Positions 13,657 through 36,384 are shown, counted from the first letter of the stretch. The stretch: 64,000 bases of DNA from Schizochytrium sp. TIO01 (GCA_004764695.1 SMSO01000036.1:1260001-1324000), one strand, 5' to 3'. The notes: generated by a model not told the origin, from the letters alone. Program-made: numbers and translations.

Positions 13657-14712
13657 TCACACAGGTTGCACTTGAGCAGCGTTTTCCTGAAAACTACTAG
13701 CGGAAGTACCAGTAGATGCGGCCTCGGTCATGTTACTGTTTTGATACTTCAATTTGTCTACAATCTGGCGAACTTTAGAACCACGTTTTTTACTGTTCAC
13801 ATGAGTTTGGCGTTTCCAAATGGCCATTGTAATACTTGCTGCCGCCACAAGATTGGCGATCACATCAAGGGGCGCTAGGGCCCAATCGACCATGTACAAA
13901 GTATATAAGTGTAGTCCTTTTGATTCATTTGCCTGCACTATTATGCGAACCGTCGTGACTATAGTCAGCAGGATAAACGAAGTGACAATTGTGAAAGTGC
14001 CCCAGAAAAAGTTCTTATGAGCAACTCGATACAGTTTGGCTGTACTATCTGCTGATGCTTGTCCAGACTTGCTCATTACACGTGCTTGTTCATAAAGGGG
14101 GTAAACAAAAAGCACGAGAAATGCAGCGCAGAGCGTTGAGTCAGTGATCGCAACAAGAATACTGAGCCACCAGGGAAACGTCTGCACACAGACACCATTC
14201 GGTAAGAGCTTTCCTCGCAAGACAATGAACACGAGTACATTTGAAAGCAGCATGCCATAAGAACCCGCCATAGTGAGTAGACGAAGATTGCGCATGATTC
14301 GAGATTTTCCTGTGTCTACGATCTTTGCGCGTTGTAGGAATATCAAATAATTTGATGCGTGGCCAAGTACATAAAATGGTGATGGCAACGAGCCAGCGAA
14401 TGAACACCATGGCCACATCTCAGGCTCTATCCTTATTACTGACAAGACGAATATGCCTAAAAGGCAACAGTTTGCAGAGATAACATGCACTAGAAGCAAC
14501 AAGAATGTTTTTTTTTGTGCCGGATTGCGGCGTACCTGACGGCTTTGTTTCAAAATATATAATAGCAGCGAGGAAGCATAAGCCAGACCTAAGCCTGACA
14601 ATACTGACTGAGTAACCCTGAAATTAGTAAATGAACTTGTCTCCTCAAAGTCATCGTCCACAAGTACGGTCGTTGCTTTGCTCCGTACGACATATTCGCT
14701 CCAAAAGCTCAT
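13657..14712 (-). CDS. 7TM receptor-like protein, left subfamily, copy 1
   Basis: A 351-residue seven-helix membrane protein of a family repeated nine times here. Helices lie at about 35-55, 70-93, 101-126, 146-168, 181-205, 234-258 and 268-298. A Cys at the outer end of TM3 (Cys103, WPWCSF) and one in the loop before TM5 (Cys175, GVCVQTFPWW) match the disulfide position of rhodopsin-like GPCRs; TM3 ends with FLQRAKIV at the place of the DRY motif. The short N terminus holds the family motif R-S-x-x-TTV-x-x-DD. The cytoplasmic tail (about 50 residues) is basic, then Ser/Thr-rich. ATG at 14712 is the first in frame and aligns with its paralogues. No known family name is recognised; receptor function is inferred from topology. 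It is the leftmost member. Confidence 0.85.
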   Translation of the reverse strand: MSFWSEYVVRSKATTVLVDDDFEETSSFTNFRVTQSVLSGLGLAYASSLLLYILKQSRQVRRNPAQKKTFLLLLVHVISANCCLLGIFVLSVIRIEPEMWPWCSFAGSLPSPFYVLGHASNYLIFLQRAKIVDTGKSRIMRNLRLLTMAGSYGMLLSNVLVFIVLRGKLLPNGVCVQTFPWWLSILVAITDSTLCAAFLVLFVYPLYEQARVMSKSGQASADSTAKLYRVAHKNFFWGTFTIVTSFILLTIVTTVRIIVQANESKGLHLYTLYMVDWALAPLDVIANLVAAASITMAIWKRQTHVNSKKRGSKVRQIVDKLKYQNSNMTEAASTGTSASSFQENAAQVQPV

Positions 14713-16164
14713 TGTAAATTTCCATCCAAAAGAAGCTCAAGGTCAAGGAAAATATTCTTGTGGTCCGGTCTTCAAACCGAAGGAAGTAGAAGGTTTGTTC
14801 TACCATAATCTAACAAAGTCAAAATGTTCCAGTAATCACATAATGAATAAAAGTAGGCGGTCAGAAGTTACTGTTTCTTTCAAGTTACAATCCTTTTATA
14901 TCAATACTTTTTTCAGAACAACAACTGTTAAATGAGTTCAAGTTATTGCCGCCATGCTGCTTTTGTAGTATTGCTGGCTGCACTTGAATGTTCTTTTTTG
15001 CCTTTGTTATTCAATTAAATAAAATTATACGTGTAAATAGCCGTTGACTCGATCGTACTTTTTAACACCATGGTATGGGGAAGCCGCATTAGTTAGAGGA
15101 ACAGCCTATCGAGATTGGCTGCGTTTCTTATAAAGAAGAAAATCAATTCAACGGCTCATCCAAATCTGTACTTGCAATTTTGAATTCAGATGTCTTTGTA
15201 TTTGCCAACGCAATATTTAATCGTTTTTATAACTTACTTATGCGATGAATATATGTGCTGATTCACATGTCAATCTTGAGACGTGGGCTTTCAGTGTTCA
15301 TGAGATAGAGGAATTCGTGGTAGTTAACCCCGCCCAATATAGATAGCTAACAAGAAAGTAATCGATGTTGGTTCACCTCGTTTTGTAAACTAAGGAAAAT
15401 TGTGGACAATCTCATTTAATTGAATATGTTATGTTCCTACTATTTATTTGGGACCACCACCCAACCCTAGGATATTTGATGCCCTTCCAATGATTTAAAC
15501 TGCCTTTATTTGCGTATTTACAAAGTTTTGGTAAACTGCGTACTGTAGTTAGGGGCGTGTTGTTCTCAACAATTATTGCTATAATGTTAGTACAACTCTA
15601 AGTGTTGAAAGATGAAAATGCTTAGTTAGATGCTGGCTAAGAGGATGGTCACTTGGGAAGCTTGCCAAACTCTGGCCTTTAGTTTTTGAATGGATAACAT
15701 GATGTTTCTGAAGATGAATTCCAGGACAGGCTATAACTAGGATACTAGGTTCAGGCATACTTAACGAGGTTAGATTAATCTTTTTTTCAAGCATCATTTC
15801 ATACTTCACCATACTTAATTCCAGGGCAAATTTATTTCTACTTTCAAATCTTGGCTATCTCGAGTTCAAGACTATGGAACTGGCTGTCTAGTCCTGGTCC
15901 TACCGGCTCCTTGAGTGTTTACAATGAGACGCACATATGTCTTGTCCACAAATTTATCAGTTGGGGATCTCAGCACTGAGGTGTTCCTCGAAAAGCAATC
16001 AACTCTGTATCTGCACATTTTCACTTGTTCTTCCGAAGAATTGATCACATTAGATGGTTATATGAATTTTAGAAAAAGATATCTTCTGTTCCTACTGTTA
16101 AAAAAATAGATCGATTATACATGTCTAATTATTTTTTATTTCTAGAAAATTGACTTTGCTCCTT
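14713..16164. other. Spacer in 7TM array
   Basis: AT-rich spacer upstream of 7TM copy 1. No gene recognised; the few frames have no family resemblance. Confidence 0.6.
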
Positions 16165-16449
16165 TCAATGAACTTGTTTTATTTGAACAGCTAGGTATGT
16201 ATGCCGAAAAATATCAATACTTATATCAAAGTTTAGGATACCATTATTGAGTGTCTCTCTACAAGAATTATACGTGTGAAGATCAACAATTCTAAGATGG
16301 TGAGAATCCTTGCTAATCCTGTATCTAACGAAAGGACGCTGGATTACACGTACATCAGTATGAAAGAAGTCTGGGTGACAGCGATCAATACCCAAAAATG
16401 TGTTTAACACACAAATATGATTGCTGGATATAATGCTACTAAAAGCCAA
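16165..16449 (-). other. Recurring companion segment, copy a
   Basis: Open frame of about 94 codons, without a usable ATG start, downstream of 7TM copy 2 and on its strand. It contains DRCHPDFF, RPFVRYRIS and LRIVDLHTY. The same order of motifs appears in the segments at 21832, 23963, 26020, 32164 and 34614, each beside a 7TM gene. A possible splice acceptor (aaccattag) lies just upstream, so this may be the last exon of a spliced gene; it may equally be a relic. No protein family is recognised. Nucleotide similarity to the 21832 copy is visible around the codons for RIS and IVDL. Confidence 0.45.
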
Positions 16450-16856
16450 ATCTAATGGTTAATTGTTTACATGCTCATCTTACTTGACCCATTAAATAAC
16501 ATATGTTATGACCAAACCTAGTAAGTCAAATCCTAAACACGAATCATATTCATATTAAGCTTTACATCCGTTCCAACGTCAGCAGATTGTTAATCTAATA
16601 AGCTAAATCTAAATAAGTTTTTGAAGTCTCTTGTATGTATCTTACTAGCAAGTGTCGGTGTTTCTTACATCAGGACAGACTGCAAAAAGGTCTTTGCATG
16701 GTGTTTTTTACCTATCAATGCTGCTCATGCGAAATCGCAAGTTCTTCTCTTCGAAAGAAAATGAATATTAAATTCGAGACTAGACGTATCAAAATCCCCG
16801 ATATAATCCTCGTATCCTCTTTGAATTATCTTCTTTCGCTTTAAATTTTAATTCTG

Positions 16857-17882
16857 CTAAACAGCATCGCTGGTGTTTGATTTCCCGGTAGACGGAAGAG
16901 ATTCCAAAGGTACAACAGCATGTTTCGCTGACTTTAAAGAATTTACGGTATTAGCACGTGGCAGTCTTCGATGTTTTGAAGGTTTCCAAATTACGATAGT
17001 AATGTTACAAGCTGCAATCGCATTAGCCATCAAGTCGAGGGGGCCTATCGTCCAGTCGACAAGATAGAATCCATAAACACGCTCACCAGACCGCTCGTGC
17101 ATTTCAGTCAAAACCCGGATTGTTGTTGTAAGAACTAAGAAGATGAATGAGGTCGCAATTGTGAAAGAGCCCCACTTCAAATTTTTAAGAGCTACTTCCT
17201 TCAGTTTTTTACTACTTTCCGAGGATACGTTTCCATATGCACTCATTTTATTAGCTTGCTGGACTAGAGGATAGATGAACATAATTAGAAAGGCTAAGCT
17301 CAATGCAGAGTCTGCAATCGCGATAAGGATACTCAACCACCAAGGAAATGTCTGCACGCAGACATTGTTTGGAAGCAGAATTCCACGGAGGATTACAAAC
17401 ATGAAGCAATTAAAAGCCAACATGAAATAAGTTCCTAGCGTTGTAAACAAACGTAGCGCATTCATCAAAGATGAGTTCCCCAACTCTATGATCTTTGAGC
17501 GTTCCAGGAAAATCATATAATTCGCTGCATGGGCTAGAACATAGAGCGTAGCTGGAAGCGAAGCTAAAAAGGAACACCATTGCCAAGAGTCCGCACTTAT
17601 TTTAATAAGAGAAAGCAAAAACATCAAAAAGCTGCATATTACAGCTGCACCAAGATGAAACAGAAGATATTTGAAGATTTTGCTTTGCTTATCATTTCGG
17701 TGTACATACCTACTACTTCGAAGGACATAAATCAATATGGTAAGGCATACGAGCAGTGTGATACAGCAAAAAGTAGATTGGACAACTCGAAAATTAGTAA
17801 ACGATGATGTTTCCACAAAACCATCATCAACAATAACAGTAGTGGTTCTGTTCCTTACAACATTAGTTTCCCAGAAACTCAT
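16857..17882 (-). CDS. 7TM receptor-like protein, left subfamily, copy 2
   Basis: 341 residues, same architecture as the 13657-14712 gene and its closest relative by loop and N-terminal motifs. N terminus has the acidic motif TTVIVDDGFVETSSF. Cys103 (WQWCSF) and Cys175 (NVCVQTFPWW) form the predicted extracellular pair; TM3 ends FLERSKII. TM7 contains VDWTIGPLDLMAN. The tail after IWKP is about 40 residues, basic and Ser-rich. The third cytoplasmic loop (about 206-233) carries a Ser/Lys cluster that could be phosphorylated. ATG at 17882 is supported by alignment with its paralogues. Function as a receptor is inferred from topology only. Confidence 0.85.
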   Translation of the reverse strand: MSFWETNVVRNRTTTVIVDDGFVETSSFTNFRVVQSTFCCITLLVCLTILIYVLRSSRYVHRNDKQSKIFKYLLFHLGAAVICSFLMFLLSLIKISADSWQWCSFLASLPATLYVLAHAANYMIFLERSKIIELGNSSLMNALRLFTTLGTYFMLAFNCFMFVILRGILLPNNVCVQTFPWWLSILIAIADSALSLAFLIMFIYPLVQQANKMSAYGNVSSESSKKLKEVALKNLKWGSFTIATSFIFLVLTTTIRVLTEMHERSGERVYGFYLVDWTIGPLDLMANAIAACNITIVIWKPSKHRRLPRANTVNSLKSAKHAVVPLESLPSTGKSNTSDAV

Positions 17883-18647
17883 GATTCAATTAAGCCTGCA
17901 TGCCACGACATCCAAAGAGATTTAGTTTTGCAGGGCGTGAGATCCTGTTTCAAAATGTTGTTATTTTTGGTGGTCTTGAACATAAGAAAGCATTAACGGG
18001 CTGTTACAGAGATGACTTTTATTCGTTTCAATTTCTTTTGATGATTCAAGCAGTGATTTCGAGAGCAAGGACTAGGTGAATATGAAGTAGTAGAGGAAGT
18101 TGCTGATGGTTAGCAAACTATCTTTGAATGAATTAGTGCTTCATTATTGGTTATCATGGCTGTGGCTAAATTTCGTTTCGTGAAATGAGTAAAATGGCAG
18201 GGTTTTTGCCCAGTAAAGGGAAGCAAGCTTTCAAAAAATCAAGAAAAGAAAAATTGTTTTGCTCGCAAGATCTTATCTTTTGTGCTCTTTATGCGGACGT
18301 TGTATGTATGACCCCTGTACTTGAAGCATCAGATTTCGTGCGTATTGACTGCAAATAAGTTACCGTTGAAATGCTTCTTTTCAGAAACGGTTGAATATGT
18401 CATCCAGATACTTGAAAGAACATGTTTCACACAAGAAGGGAAGAAAAAACAAGTGCACGCATCAATAATTGTCGTGAAAAAAAGGCAATATGAACATGAT
18501 TGAGAAGTATGCGTTGAACTGGTCAAAAAGACTCTTTGATGCTTAGTCTTCAGATGAACACATTGTGTTCTTATCTTATAATTTGACGAGGAAACAATAG
18601 AAATGTGATCCTATCGGTCTTTGAATTGAAGTAAAAGCTAATATTAA

Positions 18648-18667
18648 AGAAAGAAAGAAAGAAAGAA
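18648..18667. repeat. AAAG microsatellite
   Basis: Five GAAA-type units. Confidence 0.85.
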
Positions 18668-19075
18668 CGATGATCGCCTCATTGAGTTCTACACAGATTT
18701 GCACTCTTTCAAACCTGGTAAGATTCTTGAACCAGTCGATGTCCGGCCACAACACATTGGTAGTGTGTTCTTCCTGTAAGATATTATGCATTGGCAAAGT
18801 AAGCAATACGTCTTTGAGATTATTTTCCAAATACAAGGCATCTAGGGTGAATAATGAGAGCAGCATTCAGAAGCACTCTAATTGCATTGAGGTCAGAGCC
18901 GTTAAACGATGTTCCAGAACAGTACCCAAGTAATATGCTTGATTTTTTTTTAATTTAATCAAAATAATCAAAATAAATATATATAGCTGATTCCCTACAT
19001 TAAAAATTAAAAGTTTACATAAAACAACTTTCTTGAAAAAATAAGTTTGATAAATATTAAATATTACTTTAATGT

Positions 19076-19102
19076 CAATTTCAATTTCAATTTCAATTTC
19101 AA
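19076..19102. repeat. AATTTC hexanucleotide repeat
   Basis: Four to five perfect hexamer copies. Confidence 0.9.
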
Positions 19103-20040
19103 AACAAAATATACATATGTACATATGCAACAACAGAGGAAAATGCAAGCTACCATCTGAACCTATGCCATGCGGTCAGTAAAGTTGTCCACAGCTATGG
19201 GTTGACTGACTTATGACGCTTAAATATTATAGAATCCGGAAAACATTAAAAACAATTAAAATTACTTGCAGTATTTTTATTTTTTTTCATTGATGGTATC
19301 GCAGCCACAAATTTATGTATCATAGTTTCTTGACCGTGCTCGACTTAGTCTTGCATTTGTGAACATATATCTAAGACATAGCTACCATAGCGGAGAGAGA
19401 TAATTTGTATCAAAAGACTAGACTGGCTTCAAAGTTCAAACTCCTTCGAAAATATAATAATTCGTTTGAGAGGCGACTAAGTTATCTTAATGAAGTCTTA
19501 GCTAATCTAAAATTAGAGCCAAAAAAACATTTCTCTCCTTATCGTTGTTTACGGCTCTTTAGAGGGACTTACACTATTCGAGTTCTCTAGCTGCGCTCTT
19601 TCTCGTTCCGTGCAGTGCGAACTGCTCCAGAAATTCACATCCCAGTATATTATCAAAAGATGGCGTAAAAGCCATATAAAAATTAAGTCAAGCGCAGTAG
19701 GTGCAATAGGTTATACCTTTAAATTATATTGGGTGAAAGAGAGCCAGGCTATGGATCTTTCTTCAAACATCGACCATTCTACTATAATCGTAAGTAATTT
19801 ATCATAAGAGTCTTGGGTGAATACTTTCATCTATTTGTATCATCCATTCTAACCTATGCGGGTGTCGCGCCATGTGCCAGTACCGAGTTGCACTTTAGCG
19901 AACGAATAGATATTCGTTTACGAAAGTCAGCATTCGTACTTTTGTGACATTATTACCTCGTCTCTTCGGTAACTTTGATAAATGGAACAACAAACTTTGA
20001 TTTAGTATAGGCGCTGATCTGTATAATATGAAGAAGCGCA

Positions 20041-20996
20041 ATGAGCTTTTGGAGTGAATACGTCGAGCGAAGTGAAGCAACGACTGTAGTTGTAGACGAT
20101 AAGTATGAGGACACGCGCACATCCAATAAACTCAGACTTTCGCAGACAATAGTTTCTAGCTTATGCCTACTTATAACTACTCTGTATTTTATTTATATTT
20201 TACATCAAAGTCGCCAGGTTCGCCGAAAACCTACGCAGAGAACCATATTCAAGCTCTTCGTTGGACATGTACTTTCAGCAAGTGTTGCAAATTTAGTAAT
20301 TCTTGTATTATCAGTGGTTAATATAGAATCTGATGCGTGGCGGTGGTGCTCTTTCCTTGGTTCACTCCCCTCACCATGCTATGTATTAAGTCATGGATGC
20401 AATTATTTGATTTTTCTTAAGCGATCGAAGACGGTTTACACAGGATCATCAAGATTGATGCGCCTTTTCAATCTATTTACATTATTTGGTACTTATGGTA
20501 TGTTGTTCACAAATGCATGCGTGTTCATTCTTTTGCGAGGGTTGCTATTACCGAATAATGTTTGCGTACAGACGTTTCCCTGGTGGCTCAGCGTCCTTAT
20601 TTTAGCTGCAGACACGTCGCTCACCACCGTATTCCTCTTCCTTTTCATTTACCCCCTTCGTCAGCAAGCTCATGCTTTGCGCACGTGTGGCCAAGGAATA
20701 GCAGATAGTACGAAGCGGCCCGTAACAACTTCGTTTGGGGCACATTCTCAATTTCCACTTCGTTTTGTATGCTGTTGATTACTACAGTGGTTCGTTTTAT
20801 CATCGAAATAAATCAGGCGAACGATCATAAATATGTTCTGTTTATGCTTGAATGGAGCCTAGCCCCTATTGATGCACTTGCTAACATGATTGCAGCAGCC
20901 CAGATCACAAGGGGTATCTGGAAACCTAAATTTTCTTTACATAAAGATTCCAACAATACAACGTTGAAAACCGGATCAATTCACTATTCGAAGTAG
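20041..20996 (+). pseudogene. 7TM receptor-like gene, frameshifted, inverted copy 3
   Basis: The only family member on the plus strand. The first frame (20041-20778) covers the N-terminal motif, TM1-TM5 and the NVCVQTFPWW loop, then leaves the family alignment after ADSTKR near 20718. A second frame, ending at 20996, resumes the family sequence at RNNFVWGTFS and continues through TM6, TM7 and a short tail. Comparison with paralogues, which have about five more residues at this point in the third cytoplasmic loop, suggests loss of about 13 bases. Both halves are otherwise well conserved with no further stops, so the break looks recent, or could be an assembly error. It belongs to the left subfamily. 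Confidence 0.8.
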
Positions 20997-21831
20997 TTTG
21001 ATCTTTTGAGGGCAAGTGCTGCAGCTACTGTAGGCAATGATACAGCTTAGCGTCATCAATAAACTCATCGAATGGAAACCATTAATCTTTTGCGGACTCT
21101 GTGAGTCTATTGCTAATTGAGACTTATTCGAACTGTTTTTTAGTTTTGGATTGTCTCTTCTTAGCTCTGTCTTAGAGTATGACTTTTGTAAACTAATCCA
21201 CCAACACAAATTCAGGTTGATAAACCTGAATTTGTACCTTAAAAGCTCTGTAATTATCCCCAAATAAATGGGTGAGGGTTCTTTTTGCTCATATGCTCTC
21301 CATAACGATGTGCGTGTCGCTTGTAATAGAATGATCGTCCAGAAGAAAAAATGAAAAGACAAATTATCGCGTGTCCGGTTTCATAGTACATATTTGTTCT
21401 TTTTATCGATTCGTCATCTTAAAACATAATACCTACTGAGAGTGGATTCATGATGTACTCCTTTAAATCAAATCCCCAAGTTCTCTTTAAAATAAGTCTT
21501 GCCAGTACCATAGCAACCTTTGTTTACATCATCGATTCATCCTTGTATTGCACATTATATTTGTATCTGCACTTCTCTAAGTGCTTATGTAGTGCATACT
21601 AATGTACTCCTACGATCACACTGCCAATAATTGTTAATGAGCTACTCTTATCAATCAAGAAGCCAAGTCAAAGTATATAGCACTCAAATTTGCTCCTCAT
21701 GAAACCGATCCTCAACGTTTTTCTTCTGTAATTAGATCAAAATCGAACCAACGAAGCCACTTCACCACAAATTTAAATTTTGGTTTCCAATTGAGATTGA
21801 CTTTTCTATCAGCAAAACTTGAGTCTCCTTC
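20997..21831. other. Spacer downstream of broken 7TM copy
   Basis: Contains a perfect 13-bp inverted repeat with a 4-base loop at 21206-21235. A minus frame (20976-21362) includes ELLRYKFRFINL after a possible acceptor and might be a diverged companion segment of the 22073 gene; this is weak. Confidence 0.45.
21206..21235. repeat. Perfect hairpin, 13-bp arms, GATA loop
   Basis: acaaattcaggtt followed by gata and its exact reverse complement. It lies between the broken 7TM copy and its companion segment. It is not followed by a T-run on either strand that would suggest a terminator; role unknown. Confidence 0.9.
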
Positions 21832-22065: not shown

Positions 22066-22072
22066 GTTTGTC

Positions 22073-23119
22073 TTAAACTGGTGTTATAGCAACATGGCTC
22101 TTAAGAACCGACTCATTGACAGAGTCTAGCATTTTCTTAGTACCTGCTACAAGGGGTGAAACTGCTGAACTTCGCCTACTTGGATTACTTCCATTGCTCT
22201 TTAAACCATTATTAGTCTTTTGCTTTCGAGCCCACACGCTGGAGGTAATTTTCAATGCCGCGACCATGTTGGTTATGATATCGAATGGGCCCATTGCCCA
22301 ATCGACAAAATATAGGGAATAGTTCTCATTCTCAGAATGATTTTTTAGAGCGATTCGTACAGCGGTAATAACGATTAACGAAGCAAATGTGGTACATATT
22401 GTTAGTGCGCCCCATAATAAATTTTTTCTTGCTAATTTCAGTAAAGGATCGGAGGTTTTCGAGGTTGCTTTGATCTTACTCATTGATTCTGCCTGTTTCC
22501 ATACAGGATATACAAATAGGACAAGGAAAGCTGCAGATACAGATGCATCGCCAGCCATAAGAAGGACAGGAAGCCACCATGGAAATGTCTGTACACATAC
22601 TCCATTTGGGAGCAAAATTCCTCGAAGGATCACAAACATAATTGGAATTGAGCACAACATAGCAACGGTTCCTGCTGCAGCATACTGCCAAATATATCGT
22701 AATCGTTTGGAGTCAAGAGCGCCCGCAACTTGAGCTCGATGGAGAAAGATTAAATAACTGAATCCGTGCGATAAGACGTAAGTCGTGGCGGGGAGCGAAG
22801 CCAAAGCAGAGCACCAAGCCCATCCGTTTTCTGAAAACGTAACAACACCCAATACGCACATGGAAAATGTGCATGCAATCATGGCAAGGAGGTGCCCAAT
22901 CAGGAGTTTCAATATACGGCTTTGCGAGGGACTCCGCTTTTGGTTCTTGCTTCGCAATAGAACAAGAATAAACGCAGAAAGTCCTAATACAAATGCTGTT
23001 CCTGTTGTGATTGACTGCATTCTACGCATCTTTCGAAATCCTTCTGTGACGGTGAACCCAGGAATTTGCTTGACTGTTGTCTCACGACTACGTCGCACGA
23101 ACTCCTCAATGAACGACAT
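22073..23119 (-). CDS. 7TM receptor-like protein, left subfamily, divergent copy 4
   Basis: 348 residues, full seven-helix architecture with Cys103 (WAWCSA) and Cys175 (GVCVQTFPWW). It is the most divergent left-subfamily member: the acidic DD of the N-terminal motif is replaced (ETTVKQIPGF), TM3 ends FLHRAQVA, and the tail is Asn/Ser/Arg-rich. TM7 keeps VDWAMGPFDIITN. If the N-terminal acidic motif contributes to ligand binding or export, this copy should differ in specificity; that is speculation. Start ATG at 23119 aligns with its paralogues (MSF...). Confidence 0.85.
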   Translation of the reverse strand: MSFIEEFVRRSRETTVKQIPGFTVTEGFRKMRRMQSITTGTAFVLGLSAFILVLLRSKNQKRSPSQSRILKLLIGHLLAMIACTFSMCVLGVVTFSENGWAWCSALASLPATTYVLSHGFSYLIFLHRAQVAGALDSKRLRYIWQYAAAGTVAMLCSIPIMFVILRGILLPNGVCVQTFPWWLPVLLMAGDASVSAAFLVLFVYPVWKQAESMSKIKATSKTSDPLLKLARKNLLWGALTICTTFASLIVITAVRIALKNHSENENYSLYFVDWAMGPFDIITNMVAALKITSSVWARKQKTNNGLKSNGSNPSRRSSAVSPLVAGTKKMLDSVNESVLKSHVAITPV

Positions 23120-24338: not shown

Positions 24339-25355
24339 TCAAGAGCTTAAGCGTAGTGATGATCTGAACCCCTTTTGTGTTGCGAAATCCTTTGAAAACA
24401 ATACAATGCTTCTAATTACTGATTGGTGGCTTGCGCCTGGCATGACCCGAGTTGGCTGTACCTTCCAGACCGGGCTTGTAAGCTTCAAAGCTACGATCAA
24501 ATTGCATGTCGTCTCAAATGGACCAAACGCCCAGTCCAAAAGAGAAATTGAGTAAGAATCTCCACCCCGCCGTTGTAATATGAACGCGGACAAAATAACA
24601 ATGAGAATATATGAAATAGTTGACAATAACGACAAAGAACCCCATACTAGGTTTTTTTTTGCAATAAATAGTAATTTTTCGCCACTTTCAACCATAGCAA
24701 CTTGATCTTTCAAAAAGCGAGCCTGGGCTTGAACAGGCAAAACAAACAGAGCCATAAATGCTACACCTAATGGGACTTCAACGACAAGCACAATGATGCC
24801 TCCCCACCATGGATATGTGTGTGTACACACACCATTTGGCAGAAGCTCCCCGCGAACCATCGCAAAAATGAAGACTGTACCAACTACGGTTGTATAGGTC
24901 CCAATTACTGCTATGTGCATTGCCATGTTGACTATTGATGCTTGTGGCATGTTTCGAGAGACAATTTTAGACCGATGGAGAAAGATTAAGTCCGAAAAGC
25001 AGTGAGAAAGAGCATATGTAGTCGATGGAAATGACCCCAAGAATGCACAGGTTCTCCAATGCCCAATTCTCAGATGAATGGTTCCGAATAGTGCCATCAT
25101 AAAGTTCGTAATGATATTTGAAGAAATGTGCAAAAGCAATAACTTAAAAAGATAGGACTGCGTTTGCGTGCGTCTCACCGCACGACTATGCAGAAGAACA
25201 TAAATTGCAACAATAGTTGCAAAACCCAGTGCAAGAATTGAGCAGATTGCTTGCATTTTGCGCAAAGATTCAAAAGCTGCACTTTCTTCGAAGAGATCAT
25301 CTTCGATGACTGTGTTATTCCTTGATCGACTAAAGACATCCGAGATAACACGCAT
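24339..25355 (-). CDS. 7TM receptor-like protein, right subfamily, copy 5
   Basis: 338 residues with seven helices. The loop before TM5 reads GVCTHTYPWWGG, so it belongs to the right subfamily; the TM3 cysteine is in WRTCAF. TM3 ends FLHRSKIV. The N terminus is the variant MRVISDVFSRSRNNTVIEDD, longer by two residues than the left-subfamily form. The third cytoplasmic loop carries VESGEKLLFIAKKN in place of the AESSxKLMxIAKKN of its neighbours. TM7 keeps LDWAFGPFETTCN. It is the first right-subfamily gene next to the boundary with the left block. The ATG at 25355 was chosen by alignment. Function is inferred from topology. Confidence 0.85.
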   Translation of the reverse strand: MRVISDVFSRSRNNTVIEDDLFEESAAFESLRKMQAICSILALGFATIVAIYVLLHSRAVRRTQTQSYLFKLLLLHISSNIITNFMMALFGTIHLRIGHWRTCAFLGSFPSTTYALSHCFSDLIFLHRSKIVSRNMPQASIVNMAMHIAVIGTYTTVVGTVFIFAMVRGELLPNGVCTHTYPWWGGIIVLVVEVPLGVAFMALFVLPVQAQARFLKDQVAMVESGEKLLFIAKKNLVWGSLSLLSTISYILIVILSAFILQRRGGDSYSISLLDWAFGPFETTCNLIVALKLTSPVWKVQPTRVMPGASHQSVIRSIVLFSKDFATQKGFRSSLRLSS

Positions 25356-26198: not shown

Positions 26199-28743
26199 CT
26201 GAAACAAAATAGGGAATGTTCCGTTGGGAAATGTGTAAATTTACGGCTAACAGAAGCAAGGTTTCTCTTAAATATTGTTGGCATCCATATGTATTATATT
26301 TCATTTTTAAAAAATAACTTTCGAAGTTTAAAAAAAAAAATTAACCTACAGGAGGGTATAAATATATTTAAAAGTTGACACCATCTGTTGGTAAGGGATA
26401 CGAGGTAAGTTTAGACTTTGGCTATATGCTAATTCCCGGTCTTGCATGGACAGTTGATCAATTGACCTGGCCAAGCTTGCCTTGAGAAAAGACGTTTGCT
26501 GGTTGAAAAGTCAAACAGAGACTTCAGATCTGTGCTGCGCAACTTGACAGATGCGCTAGCACATGGTTCTTGCATGTTCTTGTAATGTCTCTATATGTCG
26601 ATGAATTATATTTTAAAATCTGTAAGCCCTTCAGATCGAAACATCAGGAATGGAGGATCAACTAATTGATACTTTTATTGAATAGATATCGCGTGCCATG
26701 ACCGTACATTGAAAAGATGATAATATGGAGCGATAGATAAGCTTCATTCTCGATATGACATTGTATCGATAGAAGGTCAATGTAAATTATTTAAATATTT
26801 CTGTCAAACTATTGTATGATTGAAAAATGGTCATAAAGTCATTTTATTATAGCACATTATTGCATACAAAAGTCGAGTAAGCCTCTATATGCACCATCTA
26901 CTGCTCTAATGCACCTTTTCATTCTCGCCATGATGTCATCTGTCAGCTTCAGAAAATTTAAGCGAACTCGGCATAGGAGAATAATTCTTAACCTTAGGTA
27001 TTCTCTGTTCGATCCATTTAAAACAGCTGATTTTTTTTGTTATAGACTAGCTGCTGATTTTAACAGTAATGATTGCATAATCTTGATAGAGTGCGTTTGT
27101 AACTATTAATCATTAGTTCACAGCAAATCGAGTTCGAAATAGACCATACTATTCATGCGCTGGAAGAGTGTTATTGCGAAAAATCTAGCAGGTAACTATA
27201 AACTCGTTTTGATGACTTCAAATAGCTAGTATATTCGAAAGACCGCAAATTGGTGGTACTTTAGTTCAAAACATGACTTGTACCTTTGCAAAACAGAATT
27301 TTTAAAATTACATACGGGATTAGTATCCAGTCAAATTTATCTCTAATGTAAGATCAAACAGTATCAAAAGTCTGAAAAGTGACTTATACAGACTTAAAGA
27401 ACTTGGGGAGCGGTACAAGAGAGTGTTGGCCGTTTTAGTAGGTTTTGCAAGTAGCGCAGCGGCTTAGAACCTAAACAAAGCTTGACTCATTCGCACGAAT
27501 ACACGCAGATAAATAAGAACAAACACCTCAAGCTATATCAGCAGGATATTACATCCATTTTCAAGATGTTTTGTGGGTCCAAAACTCGTGAAATTCATGT
27601 GTATGCTTCGAAATATGATCAAGAACTCGTCCGTCATATTGAAATTAGGCATCTTACCAAATAATCTCAATCATGTCGTGCTCTGAATACAGAGCATTTT
27701 TGATAAACTCTTATGACAACTTTTAAAGTCAATTTTCTTTTAGATTTTTCGCAAAGGGCTTTATCAGAGACATACATCTGTTCAGTTTTACTGAAAATCG
27801 CAAATCTTTACCAATTATATTTTGGCTTTGATTGTATGGTTGGGTATTCTCTTCTTCTTTATTTCTTTTGATCTGCCCGATGCTGATCTCTGAGACGGCT
27901 CGCTTAACTTGACAATAAAACACAAGGCAAGTGCACCTCAAAGCTGTTCAGGGGTTCTGCACGCGGGAAAGCTGTCGAGCTCGGGTGCAGCCAAGACGGA
28001 GCAATCCAGGAATAGCTGACTGCATTGAGCTCGACTCTCTCAATGAGACTCTACGTTTCTTATCTGGAGATCATGGGTCTTGTGGCACTCTCATATCCTA
28101 TTCTATCTGGGTGAAAGAAAGGTCATTCTAGCGCCCAAGATGCTGCAATTGGCAACTACGAATCTTTCAATACTGACGATCCGTCGCTTTCCTCAGTAAG
28201 TTCAGTACTCCTGGTCTTTTCCTCTGTTGTCTTTAGCGATGAGGCTAGCAGCATGAACATGCAGACCAAAAGTAAACAAATCAATTTCCTTGAACCTCAC
28301 TCTCGCATGTGATTATAGCTTTCCCATAAATTTTATAAATTGAAGCTCCTGGAGTAGATTACAAGATTGAATTCCACCTTTCGGGTTTCTTCCTTTTTCA
28401 AAGAAAAGTATTCATATCTTTGGGCTCATGTTCCTATTATATTGTATTGCTCTCATGTATATAGGTCAATCCTAGTGTAATGAATCCTAGAAGCAGAAAT
28501 GTAAGGCTGCATGTTTATATTTTATTTCAAGAAAAAAAGACTTCAGTTCTTGGACTGAAGCTCCACTGTATAATTGCAAAAGAAATTAATAAATTCTCTG
28601 TAAATCCATAAGCTTTGTTTCACGCTGAGCTACAATTAGCATTACGTGCGAGTGCACTTATTAAGTGGAATAACTTAGACATTGTTCTCTAATAAATAAT
28701 ACAACAGTATACCATTAAATCACCCTTCATCCATTCATTCGTA
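26199..28743. other. Long spacer in 7TM array
   Basis: About 2.5 kb, AT-rich. A GC-richer patch at 27930-28130 has open frames in both directions but no recognisable product. It would hold the 3' UTR of 7TM copy 6 and possibly the upstream exons of the companion segment at 26020. Confidence 0.5.
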
Positions 28744-29769
28744 TCACGATTGGAACTCTGCGAGATTATCACTCCGTCTAATATTATTGTTTGTGTATGA
28801 CCTGGATAACATCTTGATACTTCGAACTAAAGAATCGGTCATCTTAGTTCGGGGAACAACAGAACTGGATGAAGCTTTCCATACTGGTTGTGTAAGTTTC
28901 AGTGCTGCCAGCAAATTTGCGGAAGTTTCAAATGGACCCAAACTCCAATCTAACATATATATAGCCCCATTATGACTCTTACTCAATTCAAGGATGGTTC
29001 TTGCAACCATCACTATCGACATAAAGACGAGCGTTGTACACAAAGACAACGACCCCCACAAGAAATTTCGCCGAGCGATACGCATTAACCTTTTGCTACT
29101 TTGTGCTGTTGCTGTATGCTCAGAGAGAAACTTAGCTTCTTTTCGGAGCGGTCCAATAAAATGAATTAGGAAGGATGTACCGAGAAGAAATTCAACCATA
29201 AGAACAACTATGCTGCCCCACCAGGGATATGTATGAGTACAGACCCCATTGGGTAGCAGAATCCCGCGGAGTAGAATATAATTTCCGCCAACACTAATGA
29301 GAGTAATGTAGGTGCATATTCTAGCAATGTATAGAGATATATCCATAGCTCTCGAAGTATTTATGTTCTTTGTGACTAAATTCGACCTTTGCAGAAATAT
29401 TAAATTAGAAAATGCGTGTGATGAAATGTACAGGGTACCAGGCATCGACCCAAGGAATGAGCACCATCGCCAGTTTTCCGTTTCAATAGTTACCATACCG
29501 AGAAGCATCATGAAGAAATTAGAAGAAGTATTTGCGATGATGTGTATTAGTAGCAGTTTAAAAAGATACTGCTGGGTAGAAGTTCTCCGCACAAAGCGAC
29601 TGTGATACACGACATAGAGCAGAGCTATAATGCTCCACAAAAAAGCCATACACCCAGCAACCGCCTGCACTTTTCTTAGATGATAAAATGATACAGACGC
29701 GACGAAGCCATCATTATCAATCACAGTTGAGGATTGGCTTCTTCTAATCACTCGGTCGTAAAAGCTCAT
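28744..29769 (-). CDS. 7TM receptor-like protein, right subfamily, copy 6
   Basis: 341 residues. Right-subfamily signature GVCTHTYPWWGS before TM5 and WRWCSFLGSMPG at TM3; TM3 ends FLQRSNLV. N-terminal motif RSQSSTVIDNDGFVASVSF departs from the usual TTV and from the acidic E after F. The third cytoplasmic loop has the shared FLSEHTATAQSSKRLM. TM7 has MLDWSLGPFETSANLLAAL. The tail is basic and Ser-rich, ending in DNLAEFQS. ATG at 29769 aligns with its paralogues. Function is inferred from topology. Confidence 0.85.
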   Translation of the reverse strand: MSFYDRVIRRSQSSTVIDNDGFVASVSFYHLRKVQAVAGCMAFLWSIIALLYVVYHSRFVRRTSTQQYLFKLLLIHIIANTSSNFFMMLLGMVTIETENWRWCSFLGSMPGTLYISSHAFSNLIFLQRSNLVTKNINTSRAMDISLYIARICTYITLISVGGNYILLRGILLPNGVCTHTYPWWGSIVVLMVEFLLGTSFLIHFIGPLRKEAKFLSEHTATAQSSKRLMRIARRNFLWGSLSLCTTLVFMSIVMVARTILELSKSHNGAIYMLDWSLGPFETSANLLAALKLTQPVWKASSSSVVPRTKMTDSLVRSIKMLSRSYTNNNIRRSDNLAEFQS

Positions 29770-30569
29770 TGGTCAACTAGATCATATTATGCCAGTGCGG
29801 TTAGGCAAAGCGTTGCCTTCCTCATTCAACTAACCTAGGTTTGCGAGGGTTCTAAATGTGCTCGAGCCCAGGTCTTGATTGGGTAATTAATCCGACCATG
29901 CCTTGCAAGGTCAGTTTCTCAGCTCTGTGATGTGGGGGCGAGTGTAGAAACTACTAGCACAACAAGAAGAGATCCGTTGGATTGAACCTGTTATATTCCA
30001 AAAATAACTCAAAGAATGACCTCTTTAACAGACGACAGAAGTTGTAGTGTCAAGTTGATCCTTAGATTTAATGCATTTTACTCTCCGATGTGCCCAATTT
30101 TAAAACTACAAACTACAAACTGCAAGCTGTAAAAAAAACTTCAAACCTGAATTAAGCCCATTATAGGCGTTTTCTTGTGAAGGCGAATACCACAAACGCT
30201 TAAGATAATTACTATACAGCTCCTAGTATAGTGAACAAAATTGTTTGAAAGGAGATCCCTTTGAGCACAAATAAATAGAAAACCTCAGTTATAATACCGA
30301 CTATCTTTTTTGGACTTTGAGAAAATATCCAAGATCTGCACTAGAGGCCGTTCCACGCAGGTTCACACCAAACGCTTCAACACATAATTGCAAATGAGGT
30401 TTCAGCAAGTGATATTTATATTATGTACTCTCGCGAGGTGATCAAGGAAAACCAATTACAACTCAACAAAAAGGTTAATCTATTTTGAACTTGAACTAAG
30501 AAGATTGAAATAATAGTTGATAACTCAATATACATTGGAGGAAAAACACCGTTCCTGAATAAATCTATA
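29770..30569. other. Spacer in 7TM array
   Basis: AT-rich. A short minus frame near 30300-30390 (FGVNLRGTASSADLGYF) looks protein-like but is only about 27 codons. No gene called. Confidence 0.5.
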
Positions 30570-31736
30570 TTACTGAATAGCCTTGATAGAGGGTGCCCTA
30601 GAAGTTAATAGCGAACTAGATTTTTTAATTGATTGACCAGACCTAATTTGCGATGGTCCTGACAATGCTCTTGCGGTTGATTGCCGATTCGGTTGCCAAT
30701 TCAAACTTGATGGAAGCTGGGAAGATCTACGCAAGTCATTGTTTGTATTGCTTCTTGGGAAGAAGCTTAAACGTTGCAATACATGGTGATTCTCGCTGCT
30801 GCTGCTTTTATAACCGCGAGATAAAATCTTATTATTTCTTCTCCAGACAGGAGCTGTAAGTTGTAGCGCTGCTAACAAATTAGCCGATGTTTCGATAGGT
30901 CCAAACGCCCAATCTAACATATAAACTGCATATACCTCATCATTGTTTGTCTCGAGTACAATTCTTGCAATAATTACTATCCAAATAAAGCAAAATGTGG
31001 TTGCCAATGAAATAGAACCCCAGTACAGGTTCTTTTTTGCAATCTTCATAAGCTTTAAACTGCTTTCGGCAGTCGCTGCATGTTCAGAGAGAAATTTTGC
31101 TTGTGCTCGAACGGGCTCAACAAAAAGAATCAAAAATGCTGTGGCAAGTGACAGGTCACCAACTAAAACCACAATAGCGGCCCACCATGGATAAGTGTGT
31201 GTGCAGACATTATTTGGAAGTAGCATGCCGCGAAGAAATACATAGCATGCTCCAACCACTAGAAGCATAGCATACGTTCCAAACGTAGTAATTCTAAGAG
31301 TGTTTCTCAATGTTATTGAACCTTGCATATTCTTGGTCACTACCTTCGATCTTTGTAGAAAGATTAAATTTGAAAATGCATGTGAAGTCACGTAAGCTGG
31401 TCCTGGCATTGAACCTAGAAAGGAGCATAGCTGCCAATGTTTCGGATATATATAGACTGTGCCCAGAAGCATCATATGAAAGTTTGAAATAATATTTGCT
31501 GCAACATGTGCCAGTAGAAGCTTAAATAAGTAGCTTTGTGCCGGAGTTCTCTTCACATGCTGACTTTGGAACAAGACGTATGCTAATGCAAGAAGTCCAA
31601 GAACAAACGCAAGTGTTCCACCGGCCGCTTGCATTGCTCTTAAGCTCACGAAAGCTTCTGTTTCAACAAAACCATCATCAACCAAGACTGTAGTTTCTTT
31701 TGATCTCTTTATGACGGAATTAAAATAATTGCCCAT
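30570..31736 (-). CDS. 7TM receptor-like protein, right subfamily, copy 7, long tail
   Basis: 388 residues, the longest member. Cys104 (WQLCSFLGSMPG) and Cys178 (NVCTHTYPWWAA) are the predicted extracellular pair; TM3 ends FLQRSKVV. The third cytoplasmic loop reads FLSEHAATAESSLKLM, which is almost fixed in the right subfamily. TM7 has MLDWAFGPIETSANLLAAL. The extra length is a cytoplasmic tail of about 88 residues, rich in Ser, Arg and Asn, with several R-x-x-S sites; such tails often carry phosphorylation sites in receptors. N-terminal motif TTVLVDDGFVETEAF is canonical. Start by ATG at 31736. Confidence 0.86.
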   Translation of the reverse strand: MGNYFNSVIKRSKETTVLVDDGFVETEAFVSLRAMQAAGGTLAFVLGLLALAYVLFQSQHVKRTPAQSYLFKLLLAHVAANIISNFHMMLLGTVYIYPKHWQLCSFLGSMPGPAYVTSHAFSNLIFLQRSKVVTKNMQGSITLRNTLRITTFGTYAMLLVVGACYVFLRGMLLPNNVCTHTYPWWAAIVVLVGDLSLATAFLILFVEPVRAQAKFLSEHAATAESSLKLMKIAKKNLYWGSISLATTFCFIWIVIIARIVLETNNDEVYAVYMLDWAFGPIETSANLLAALQLTAPVWRRNNKILSRGYKSSSSENHHVLQRLSFFPRSNTNNDLRRSSQLPSSLNWQPNRQSTARALSGPSQIRSGQSIKKSSSLLTSRAPSIKAIQ

Positions 31737-32163
31737 TTGTCTTTCGAAATATTGATTGTACTACACAAAACGCATTTAGGCAAACTGGATCAGGTCTCGC
31801 AAGCAATGGGTGCCTCAGGCGTACTGTTTCTGGTTCGCAGTAGTTTGCAAATGTAAATGTATGTGAAGTGGAAGACTGCCACTAATACCTGGCAGAAGTA
31901 CGTGTTAGATAGGGCAAGTGCCCAACCTATGCTCTATACTTTGAACTGTGACCATTTCAATTCTGCATTCGTTCCTTGTCAGGCATTCCAGACAGTGCCA
32001 AGCTACCAAGTTATATTACCTTAGTTCCTAAATATATCAGATGGTCAACAAGTAGAAAGGAAGCACATTGCACCTTTACTGTAAGGGTATGTAATAAAAA
32101 ATAATGTTACTGTTGAGCTTGATTCTCACATTCACTTGAAGCACACTAAGAACAATTTTCGTG
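31737..32163. other. Spacer in 7TM array
   Basis: Upstream region of 7TM copy 7. No gene, repeat or clear motif seen. Confidence 0.6.
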
Positions 32164-32367
32164 TTATTTTGTTTTTGGTTGTTTCACGTACTGAGGTAAC
32201 TTATGAGCCAAACTGGCCGGGTTGAACGGAGTTGTGTCTCTATTCGGTACCGCTTGAACCGTGTCGAGATTTGCAGTATATAGATATAGACCGGGGAGAA
32301 CTTCGTACTTCTTCATGATTTTGTCCGTTGAAATCTCCTCACGGAAGAAGTGCTTCATTAATTCCAT
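32164..32367 (-). other. Recurring companion segment, copy e
   Basis: 67-codon minus frame, downstream of 7TM copy 8 and on its strand, starting with ATG. Its second half, GLYLYTANLDTVQAVP followed by TPFN, aligns with GLKVYTHYLPVGNVP and TPLN of copy f. It ends in a Lys-rich QYVKQPKTK and a stop. A further minus frame at 32760-32948 (FRSSFYLHFKISIE) resembles the start of copy d and may be an upstream exon or another relic. Small gene, last exon or relic: undecided. Confidence 0.35.
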
Positions 32368-33183
32368 GGAATAGACATTTGTTAGGAAGGAAGCTTTTCG
32401 AAGATCAGCATGTAATGATCACATGAAGAGTATTGTGAACTGTGTATTCAGCAAATGAAGTAATGTCCTTATTTTCATCACTCTTGGTATATAGGCCTGC
32501 TTCTCGTTTTTCTTTTCTTTTTCAATAGAGTAAAAACTTTTCATGAAAATATAGTTAGAAGTTATATAAGGAATTATTATTAAAAGTTTGGGGGACATGT
32601 GACGATCTATTGCTTAGTCTAAGAGGGCTCTTGCTGCACTAGTATAATTAAATGCATACATCATGACCAGGGAACGCATAGCTATCTAAACTCTGTTTGT
32701 CCCATGTCGTAAAAAAATCATGTCATCTTGCCCACAAATTTTATCTGATAAAGTACTTCTCATGAATAGAACCTCTGAAAGTGAATGATGTGATTGATAC
32801 ATGAAACAAGACCATGGTTTGGACACATTGGCTTTACTAAATCATACAAAGGTAGACTAGTCTTTATCTTATTCTCAATTGAAATCTTGAAATGTAGATA
32901 GAAACTACTACGAAACGTGCATAGACAGAATATCTCAAGATTCATCAACTTTGCAATTTAAAGCGTGTCAGGAGCCTTCACACAGAGAAAACAATAAATA
33001 AACTTAGTAACTGTGGCAGGATATTCACAAATGCACGGATCATACCATACCAAATAGACTCAGACTCAGTTTATATGCCTAGGCTGAAAAACTGAAATGA
33101 CGACACTAAATAAGCGTCATTTCAAGAATATCAAGATTTGTGGTGTATATCAAGACTGGTAGATTCGTCCTGAAATACCATTG
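32368..33183. other. Spacer with possible companion-gene exon
   Basis: AT-rich spacer. The minus frame at 32760-32948 is the only stretch with a resemblance to other sequences in the window (see the segment at 32164). Confidence 0.45.
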
Positions 33184-34260
33184 TTATGAGCCTATCGATG
33201 CGGAACCGCGAATCACCGTACTTAGTTTTCGAGGTTCATTCTCATTTTTGGCAGCAGAGCTATGATGAGCTAGAGAGCTTCGAACAAAGTTGTAATTACT
33301 TTTGGTTGCATAGCTTCCACTACGACTCTGAGTCGAACGGGGCAGAAGTTTATGATATTGCCTTTTCCAAACTGGTGCGGTTAAATTTAATGCAGCCACA
33401 AGATTGGCAGTTGTTTCAAGCGGACCGAATGCCCAGTCTAGCATGTAAACTGCATAGACTCCGCCACTTGAGTTTAGTGCGAGGGTTATCCTTGCTAATA
33501 TCACTATCATCGTGAAACAAAAGGTTGTTCCTAGAGAAAATGAACCCCAGCGTAAGTTTTTGCGGGCAACATTCATGAGCTTCATGCTACTATCAGCCAT
33601 TGCTGCATGCTCTGAGAGAAACTTGGCCTGCTGTCGCAAAGGCTCCACAAAGAGGATAAGAAAGGCAAGCGATAGAGATAAATCCGTGATCAAGACAATT
33701 ATTGCACCCCACCATGGGTAGGTATGTGTACAGACTCCATTAGGAAGCAGCTTTCCACGAAGGAAAACATAAATTGCTCCAGCAACAAACAACATGATAT
33801 ATGTGCCCATTGTGGCGAGTTTCAAAGTGATATCCATAATCTTTGAGGTATGCATATTTTTTGTAACTATCCGAGATCTTTGCAGGAAAATTAAATTTGA
33901 GAAAGCGTGTGATGTGACGTAAATTGGACCTGGCATGGACCCCAGGAAAGAGCATAACCTCCAATGATCAGGATCTATTTGTATAGTGCCAAGAAGCATC
34001 ATGTGAAAATTAGATACAATGTTTGCTGACACGTGCAGAATTAGCAGTTTGTATAGAAGGTTTTGAGTAGAAGTTCGCTTCACAAAGCGACCTTGGTAAA
34101 CCACAAGGACCATGGCACTAACCCCAGCCAAGAAGGCAAGCATTCCCCCAACTGCTTGCATTTTCCGCAGCAAGAGAAAAGCTGTGTTTTCCACGAAATA
34201 TTCATCTTCAACGACAGTTGTTTCTCGCGATCGTTTGACAACAGTCTGATAAAAGTCCAT
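33184..34260 (-). CDS. 7TM receptor-like protein, right subfamily, copy 8
   Basis: 358 residues from the ATG at 34260. The frame is open 13 codons further upstream but without an ATG, and the ATG start (MDFYQTVVKRSRETTVVEDE) aligns with the other copies. The N-terminal motif is present. TM3 cysteine in WRLCSFLGSMPG and loop cysteine in GVCTHTYPWWGA; TM3 ends FLQRSRIV. Third loop FLSEHAAMADSSMKLM. TM7 MLDWAFGPLETTANLVAAL. The tail of about 60 residues is Ser/Arg-rich. Closest in motifs to copies 7 and 9. Confidence 0.85.
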   Translation of the reverse strand: MDFYQTVVKRSRETTVVEDEYFVENTAFLLLRKMQAVGGMLAFLAGVSAMVLVVYQGRFVKRTSTQNLLYKLLILHVSANIVSNFHMMLLGTIQIDPDHWRLCSFLGSMPGPIYVTSHAFSNLIFLQRSRIVTKNMHTSKIMDITLKLATMGTYIMLFVAGAIYVFLRGKLLPNGVCTHTYPWWGAIIVLITDLSLSLAFLILFVEPLRQQAKFLSEHAAMADSSMKLMNVARKNLRWGSFSLGTTFCFTMIVILARITLALNSSGGVYAVYMLDWAFGPLETTANLVAALNLTAPVWKRQYHKLLPRSTQSRSGSYATKSNYNFVRSSLAHHSSAAKNENEPRKLSTVIRGSASIGS

Positions 34261-34613
34261 TGCACCTTGACCGAATCGCTTACTCTTTTGACTATGCAAC
34301 TATTTTGCATACTCCGAAGCTTCGCTCAACATGCGCTGTTATGACTCTCACGCACCCGGAGAAGGTAGAGATGATTCGCAAATGTTCACTAGTCCTGGAA
34401 CTTGGTTTCACAAGATGGTTTACACTTGCTGGAATGTTTGTCAAAGAACTACCTAATGTGAACTCTTAACTCAAAGCTACGATCTCTTAACTTTGTTGAG
34501 TTTGATCTGGTTTAAATTATGCCAAAAAAAATTGATTTACTATAGATTGTATTTTAATTTTTTAATTATATTTTTAATTTTTTCAATCATTCCGTTGGAC
34601 TTTTTGTCTTGAA

Positions 34614-34910
34614 TCAGGGTTCAGATACGAACTTGACAAGAGTACTATGTTCCACATAGCGAACATTGAGGGGAGTGTGTATTGGAACATTACCTACTGG
34701 TAAATAGTGTGTATATACCTTTAAACCATGTGGGGAGCCGAAGTGAATAGGTTGTAGTGTCATCGTATATTGTATAAGGAAGTTTAATTGGATCAGACAG
34801 AAAGTAATTTGGATGTTTACGCCCTTGATTAAAAAACAAAAGTAAAAAAAGCATATATGATGTGAGATCTGAAAGGAAGAATAGCATCCACGGGTCCATG
34901 ATTTGTGTCT
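34614..34910 (-). other. Recurring companion segment, copy f, frameshifted
   Basis: Downstream of 7TM copy 9 on the same strand. Two minus frames overlap: one starts at ATG 34899 (MDPWMLFFLSDLTSYMLFLL, then KHPNYFLSDPIKLPY and SLRLP), the other carries GLKVYTHYLPVGNVP to VKFVSEP and a stop at 34614. Together they match copy a from its hydrophobic start through DRCHPDFF to LRIVDL, but a one-base shift is needed near 34730, where a GTATAT donor-like site also occurs. This suggests a relic, or a spliced gene whose intron boundaries I cannot place. The N-terminal part is hydrophobic enough to be a membrane anchor. Confidence 0.4.
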
Positions 34911-35298
34911 AGCTTCTTTATGCACTTAACCAAGCGCACGCTGAATTTTGTTATTGCAATGGTGAATATTTAAAGGCACGAAGTTGAAGCAACTTAGAAT
35001 TTAACGAAGACTGTGGCGTAGCTAAAGGTTTTGGGATCTATTAACGATATCCCATCTGAATCAAAACAAAATTTATGTTGTCAAAATCACCACTGGGTCC
35101 AGCTTAAAGCATTTATTGCATAATTGTCAGAGGTACTATTTTTCAAGTTTTAATAAGAGTAACTATTCGATGTGAAAATGTATCTCGTATAAAGTTTAAT
35201 ATATATAACCAAAGAGCCTCATGCTGTGTCATGCTTTGAATCCCACTCATTATAAACATGGCATTTCCTGCTCAGGAGTTGTCGAAGCTGTAGACGGT

Positions 35299-36384
35299 TT
35301 AATCAGCGGTACTCTGAGTTTTCCGGGAAGAATTGAATGTTGAAGTTACGGGAGCAGAAGGTAGAGCTGCTGATTGAGCATACCGCAATGAGATTCTGGA
35401 TTTGGAATAGGATCCATGATAAGTTCCATTCGGACCAAGGGCGGGGTTGATGATATTGCTGCGATATTTTAAAACAGAAATGTATGGTTGCTTCCATACT
35501 GGGCTTGTTAATTTTAAAGCGGCCAGAAGATTTGCTGAAGTTTCGAAAGGTGCAAATGACCAGTCAAGCATGTAAACTGCATATGATCTTTCATCTTGGA
35601 GCTCTAACACCATTCTTGCAACGATAACAATCATAATAAAGCAAAAGGTTGTGCAAAGAGAAAATCCACCCCAGCGGAGGTTCTTATAAGCAATCCGCAT
35701 AAGTTTCTCACTACTCTCTTTAGTAGCTTTATGTTCCGAAAGAAATTTTGCCTGTGCTCGTACAGGAGCAACAAAAACAACGAGGAACGCTGCTCCCAAA
35801 GACAAGTCAGCTATAAGAACTATAATTGCTCCCCACCAGGGATAGGTGTGGGTGCAGACATTGTTTGGCAGAAGCTCTCCTCGAAGGAAAAAGAAAATTA
35901 TACAAAGTACAACGAGAATTGCATATGTACCAATCGTTGCGAGATATAGCGTGACTTTTAGGCCTTTAGACATCAACATGTTCTTCGTGACAATTTTTGA
36001 TCTCTGTAGAAAGATCAAGTTCGAAAATGCGTGCGAAGCAATGTATGCTGGTCCTGCAATAGAACCCAACACAGAGCATAATGCCCATGCACTGGGTGAA
36101 ATGTTTATGTGTCCAAGGAGCATCATATGGAAATTGCATAAAATGTTGCAAGTAATATGCAGAAGCAAAAGTCTGAAGAGGTATTCTTGTGTCGCACTCC
36201 TTTTGACAAAGCGACTATGTAATATAACATAACATAAGGCTAGAACTCCAAACGTAAGGGAGAAAACTCCACCGATTGCTTGCATTTGTCTGAGCTTCAG
36301 AAAAGCATTTGTTTCTTTGAAATTAGGATCATCTAGTACCGTAGTTTCCCGAGTTCGCTTGACGACCGTCTCCCAGAACTCCAT
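35299..36384 (-). CDS. 7TM receptor-like protein, right subfamily, copy 9
   Basis: 361 residues, the rightmost member. N-terminal motif RTRETTVLDDPNFKETNAF. TM3 cysteine in WALCSVLGSIAG, loop cysteine in NVCTHTYPWWGA; TM3 ends FLQRSKIV. Third cytoplasmic loop FLSEHKATKESSEKLM. TM7 MLDWSFAPFETSANLLAAL. The tail of about 60 residues is rich in Ser, Tyr and Asn. Start ATG at 36384. Together with copies 7 and 8 it forms the tightest group, consistent with the most recent duplications at this end. Function is inferred from topology. Confidence 0.86.
   Translation of the reverse strand: MEFWETVVKRTRETTVLDDPNFKETNAFLKLRQMQAIGGVFSLTFGVLALCYVILHSRFVKRSATQEYLFRLLLLHITCNILCNFHMMLLGHINISPSAWALCSVLGSIAGPAYIASHAFSNLIFLQRSKIVTKNMLMSKGLKVTLYLATIGTYAILVVLCIIFFFLRGELLPNNVCTHTYPWWGAIIVLIADLSLGAAFLVVFVAPVRAQAKFLSEHKATKESSEKLMRIAYKNLRWGGFSLCTTFCFIMIVIVARMVLELQDERSYAVYMLDWSFAPFETSANLLAALKLTSPVWKQPYISVLKYRSNIINPALGPNGTYHGSYSKSRISLRYAQSAALPSAPVTSTFNSSRKTQSTAD

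Follow-up and report, generated by a model that had tools for sequence, protein, structure and literature searches.

Surveys of G-protein-coupled receptors (GPCRs) in protists lean largely on Pfam and InterPro models. In thraustochytrid genomes, an enrichment of G-alpha and class C GPCR domains has been reported (PMC6050695), from a comparison that uses InterPro domains and to which a family without such a domain would therefore be invisible. In choanoflagellates, a 2025 survey described RSF and GPRch1, protist receptors with seven transmembrane helices (TM1 to TM7) and without known relatives (PMC12716839). Here we describe a tandem array of receptor-like genes in a 64,000-nucleotide stretch of the genome of Schizochytrium sp. 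TIO01 (GCA_004764695.1 SMSO01000036.1:1260001-1324000), referred to below as the window. Between positions 13657 and 36384 lie nine intronless homologues. Eight are intact open reading frames (ORFs) of 338 to 388 aa, all on the minus strand, and the ninth, on the plus strand, is truncated. All nine align end to end, with 37 to 60% identity to the copy starting at 33184 (gene 8). ORFs and alignment thus confirm the array as a preliminary description, made from the sequence alone, had reported it.

The array belongs to a sizeable and previously unclassified GPCR family, whose members very probably encode G-protein-coupled surface receptors. We consider it highly likely that the array forms the biggest local group within a lineage-specific family, comprising at least 33 loci, that signals through G proteins. 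The GPCR-like character proposed in the preliminary description is supported by the fold of the predicted models, the outward orientation of the N-terminus and the spacing of a conserved cysteine and arginine, and also by the fact that the genome encodes G-alpha, G-gamma and RGS proteins. Literature searches returned reports of GPCR enrichment in thraustochytrids and nothing on the present family.

Topology, predicted fold and conserved residues

Twenty-six full-length or nearly full-length members were aligned, with identities to the reference, gene 8 (33184..34260), down to 12%; residue numbers throughout refer to gene 8. The mean number of lysines plus arginines is 3.4, 3.6 and 6.3 in intracellular loops 1 to 3, compared with 0.8, 1.4 and 1.1 in extracellular loops 1 to 3 (ECL1 to ECL3). 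Because of this charge pattern, the N-terminus is predicted to lie outside the cell and the basic loops in the cytoplasm. The N-terminus is about 25 aa long, and an N-glycosylation sequon occurs within the first 25 residues of 14 of the 26 members.

AlphaFold predictions, as distinct from solved structures, cover two window proteins from different subclades, gene 8 (model m441418e77662, mean predicted local distance difference test [pLDDT] 78.0) and gene 1 (model m4c5d422cbd7b, pLDDT 78.8), each with a predicted template-modelling score of 0.75. Both models have seven helices, a beta hairpin in ECL2 and a short helix after TM7. The best VIA-align matches were HCAR2 (Z 17.4, root-mean-square deviation 3.8 over 248 residues) and SSTR2 (Z 17.2, deviation 4.4 over 254 residues). 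The best 50 matches listed for each model were without exception GPCRs, spanning classes A, C, D, F and T and mostly tied within about 1 to 2 Z, although absence from these lists does not by itself speak against another fold family. Foldseek, the comparison proposed in the preliminary description, agreed with the GPCR fold for both models, with E values down to 3.5e-5, and the named matches from a fold search of a viral library were mostly viral GPCRs.

All 26 members have the same residue at five positions, C103 (TM3), R128, G169, C177 (ECL2) and F204, and W100, L201, P207 and N235 are nearly invariant. C103, C177 and R128 are also invariant in all nine array copies, including the broken one, so that the shared cysteines in TM3 and before TM5, first noticed in the array, extend to the whole alignment. 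In every member, the TM3 cysteine and the arginine lie 25 residues apart, which is the class A C3.25-R3.50 spacing and was also present in the class A sequences examined. In 20 class C receptors from the same genome, by contrast, an invariant TM3 cysteine and a lysine are 21 residues apart. Of the Q/E-R-S/A-K-like motif originally described at the end of TM3, the arginine has proved invariant, whereas the residue before it varies (Q in 13 members, H in 3, K in 3, E in 2, R in 2, and others); the residue after it is A in 13, S in 11, C in 1 and V in 1, which makes the end of TM3 mostly (Q/E/H/K)-R-(S/A). Similarly, the D-W-x-x-x-P motif of TM7, described as fixed, does not vary among the eight intact genes but reads E-W in the post-lesion frame of the broken copy, and family-wide its positions are kept in 14 (D), 17 (W) and 19 (P) of the 26 members. 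N286 is kept in 23 of 26, and in most copies of the array the residues after it read L-x-x-A. Identification of P207 with P5.50 was rejected; in the model, P207 is reached only some 24 residues after the start of TM5, close to the cytoplasmic end of the helix.

The segments that vary least among the array copies are ECL2 (mean entropy, 0.39 bits), the most conserved of all, and TM3. The ECL2 pattern R-G-x-L-L-P-N-x-V-C-x-x-x-P-W-W is strongly kept, which suggests a structural lid or a ligand class shared within the array. In TM3, TM5 and TM6, conservation is stronger in the cytoplasmic half of the helix than in the outer half, as would be expected if the face that contacts the G protein were constrained.

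Size, age and signaling partners of the family

In the source genome (64.06 Mb in 37 contigs), we found at least 33 family loci on contigs C3, C13, C30, C31, C33, C34 and C35. This count is a lower bound, obtained from per-query searches in which two proteins of the array and three divergent family members served as queries. The window array comprises about a quarter of the family; several loci elsewhere form small clusters of their own, and three more copies lie about 25 kb beyond the end of the window (C35:1349052-1354928). In a maximum-likelihood tree, the nine window genes group together (92/95 support), as do several other local clusters, which indicates that duplication was mostly local. 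At least three members are broken: gene 3 on the plus strand of the window, C35:1351719 and C13:5953568. Most pairs are saturated at synonymous sites, and the ratio of nonsynonymous to synonymous substitution rates (dN/dS) is 0.10 to 0.41 where computable. Saturation together with purifying selection argues for old, retained copies and not for a fresh expansion; the label "expanding," given to a family that already has a dead copy in its array, was therefore wrong in the recent sense. No relatives were found in the viral contigs, bacterial and archaeal genomes, or phages that were searched.

The same genome contains 37 class C receptor loci, one Dicty_CAR gene and three matches to 7tm_1, two of them above the cut-off. 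The present family (at least 33 genes) is invisible to Pfam, although in number it is similar to the class C receptors. If our reading is right, receptor counts in such stramenopiles are too low.

Potential signaling partners are plentiful. Twelve G-alpha genes without an interrupting stop were found, 10 of which have the P-loop motif in an ATG-started frame, in addition to one broken match and one on a duplicate contig; 3 G-gamma genes and 46 RGS-domain matches are also present. Four G-alpha genes lie within 26 kb at C30:1577600-1603900. The G-alpha match at C8:834-1880 has the score of C30:1602726; C8 could be a duplicated contig or one from an alternative haplotype.

We propose that each receptor exposes a short, often glycosylatable N-terminus outside the cell, where a predicted disulfide between C103 in TM3 and C177 in ECL2 would cap the pocket. 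Ligand binding on the extracellular side would shift the helices and stimulate nucleotide exchange on a G-alpha protein encoded by the genome, and RGS proteins would end the signal; the basic cytoplasmic face includes the invariant R128 at the R3.50 position. Such receptors may serve to sense the environment, for instance in zoospores that show chemotaxis. Thraustochytrid zoospores are chemotactic (PMC12221091), and zoospore chemotaxis is a natural candidate role; a chemosensory function is plausible, if putative. Were the receptor reading correct, thraustochytrid zoospore chemotaxis would gain candidate receptors. The expansion of G-alpha genes in the same organism makes receptor-G-protein pairing directly testable. 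More tentatively, and with somewhat less than an even chance in our estimate, a large GPCR family that occurs only in thraustochytrids (or in labyrinthulomycetes) may, together with the class C receptors and the G-alpha expansion, constitute an independently evolved chemosensory system of a single-celled stramenopile.

Relation to known receptor classes and alternative readings

Several results weigh against assigning these proteins to the GPCRs. Against Pfam, the 26 members and their weighted consensus gave only scattered sub-threshold matches, with no receptor family among these, and a sequence-profile search of the PDB returned no match; at the level of these searches, the earlier statement that the proteins match no named GPCR class holds. 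Among the 26 members, D or E precedes the arginine in only two and tyrosine follows it in none, so the D/E-R-Y/W triad is absent, as are NPxxY in TM7 and a proline motif in TM6. To the letter, the earlier remark "no DRY, no NPxxY" is correct, but the spacing of R128 is exactly that of R3.50, and N286 falls on the 7.49 column in the profile alignment. The Foldseek template-modelling scores (TM-scores) are only moderate (0.32 to 0.53), and the alignments behind both models consist of eight sequences only. Finally, the signal obtained with a class A profile is owed to the two 7tm_1 proteins of the genome itself; it is lost when the profile consists of three animal class A receptors only, where 49 of 100 local shuffles reach the score.

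These points favor, to some extent, a reading in which GPCR-like seven-helix proteins act as transporters, channels or trafficking chaperones, without coupling to G proteins: the family has no receptor sequence match, its TM-scores are moderate and the canonical DRY and NPxxY are missing. We nevertheless judge it quite improbable. No transporter, channel or chaperone model rose above its Pfam cut-off, and no such structure was among the best 50 fold matches listed, so neither the transporter match nor the non-GPCR fold feared at the outset was found. The conserved residues occupy receptor hallmark positions with class A spacing, and the better conservation of the cytoplasmic halves of TM3, TM5 and TM6 is what a G-protein face would produce. 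A microbial-type rhodopsin or opsin, serving as a light sensor, would also have seven helices, and channelrhodopsins occur in thraustochytrids, with a report from Aurantiochytrium limacinum (PMC12221091). The core of TM7 (residues 271-290) contains no lysine in the array alignment, however, so the array proteins lack a Schiff-base site for retinal; with no rhodopsin Pfam match either, we give this reading practically no weight. The array could instead be a rapidly diversifying chemoreceptor repertoire comparable to animal olfactory receptors, with one ligand per copy. Tandem duplication, birth and death of copies and chemotactic zoospores are consistent with such a repertoire, but it appears unlikely to us, given the age of the duplications and the low dN/dS. 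With ECL2 so strongly conserved, the copies of the array would further not be expected to differ widely in their ligands, and no diversifying selection was seen, though site-wise tests were not run.

Within a GPCR family signaling through G proteins, which remains our preferred reading, the nearest described receptors are those of class A (PF00001). Shared features are seven helices, an outside N-terminus, the TM3 and ECL2 cysteines, the arginine 25 residues after the former, and, in the models, the ECL2 hairpin and the short helix after TM7; class A structures also provide the best fold matches. The family differs in having mostly Q-R-S/A instead of D/E-R-Y, N-L-x-x-A (in the array) instead of NPxxY, no C-W-x-P in TM6 and a conserved TM5 proline near the cytoplasmic end. 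No member reaches the PF00001 (7tm_1) cut-off, and a genome search with 7tm_1 misses the array. An hhalign comparison of the family with a five-member class A profile gave probabilities of 58% (local) and 71% (global), with scores above 120 of 120 shuffles in which columns were permuted in motif-breaking blocks of 12. In the unconstrained profile alignment, C103, R128, C177 and N286 fell on C3.25, R3.50, the ECL2 cysteine and 7.49. Against the genome's own 7tm_1 pair alone, the probability was 14%, and the score exceeded 100 of 100 shuffles in both local and global modes.

This pair, two divergently arranged class A-like genes at C31:8838361-8841883 (L001 and L002), comprises the closest sequence relatives by profile comparison. 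Both proteins have the TM3 cysteine, the arginine 25 residues on and the ECL2 cysteine; they differ in their long cytoplasmic tails and in a W-T-P motif in TM6 that is absent from the array family, and homology is not firmly shown. The family may accordingly be a divergent class A branch sharing an ancestor with L001 and L002, a possibility that we rate as appreciable but short of even and that would refine, not contradict, the reading preferred here. The shuffle results, the 25-residue spacing and the predominance of class A among the top fold matches speak for it. The lost signal against the animal sequences and the failure to reach the 7tm_1 cut-off speak against it, as does the finding that structures of classes C, D, F and T trail most of the class A matches by no more than about 1 Z, so that the fold does not decide the class. 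Because the PF00001, DRY and NPxxY tests fail and the signal is lost against the animal receptors, class A membership is not established, and we do not file the family there; kinship is possible but unproven. If the reading is right, the family offers a test case for drift away from DRY and NPxxY with the Cys-Arg core kept.

Class C receptors (PF00003) share the superfamily fold (mGlu1, Z 16.5). They differ in the TM3 Cys-Lys spacing described above and in their open frames, mostly 750 to 1,560 aa and consistent with large N-terminal domains. A class C relation was rejected: the hhalign score lies within the shuffles (5 to 6 of 120 reach it, 6 in local mode), there is no Pfam match and the N-terminus is short. 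A relation to Dicty_CAR, or cAMP receptor-like, proteins (PF05462) was likewise rejected; the genome search finds one other gene only, and hhalign gives 0.6% to that gene. By inspection, the N-x-L-Q-x-x-M-N-x-L helix that RSF receptors have between TM6 and TM7 (PMC12716839) does not occur in the corresponding part of the family alignment.

The nine genes and their surroundings

From the start of the array, the intact genes on the minus strand, each identified as an ORF and by alignment, are gene 1 (13657..14712, 351 aa), gene 2 (16857..17882, 341 aa, with the N-terminal sequon NRT at residue 11), gene 4 (22073..23119, 348 aa), gene 5 (24339..25355, 338 aa, with the sequon NNT at residue 13), gene 6 (28744..29769, 341 aa), gene 7 (30570..31736, 388 aa), gene 8 (358 aa) and gene 9 (35299..36384, 361 aa). 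Gene 3 (20041..20996, plus strand) is a pseudogene; in comparison with genes 1 and 2, it lacks 13 bp between positions 20711 and 20712. After the lesion, the shifted frame stays open as far as the natural end (TAG, 20994-20996). The lesion is thus a 13-bp deletion and not a homopolymer sequencing slip.

A tblastn search of the window with the family revealed no other decayed copies, and Rfam and tRNA scans of the window gave no matches. Two further window ORFs are without a Pfam match: a 219-aa multi-helix membrane protein at 44263-44922, which was not among the matches of the family search, and a 210-aa protein on the minus strand at 5750-6382, with a hydrophobic N-terminus and a kinase-like appearance by eye. 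At 8956-10099, about 3.5 tandem units of 283 to 287 nt, 64 to 100% alike, are spanned only by a 134-aa ORF.

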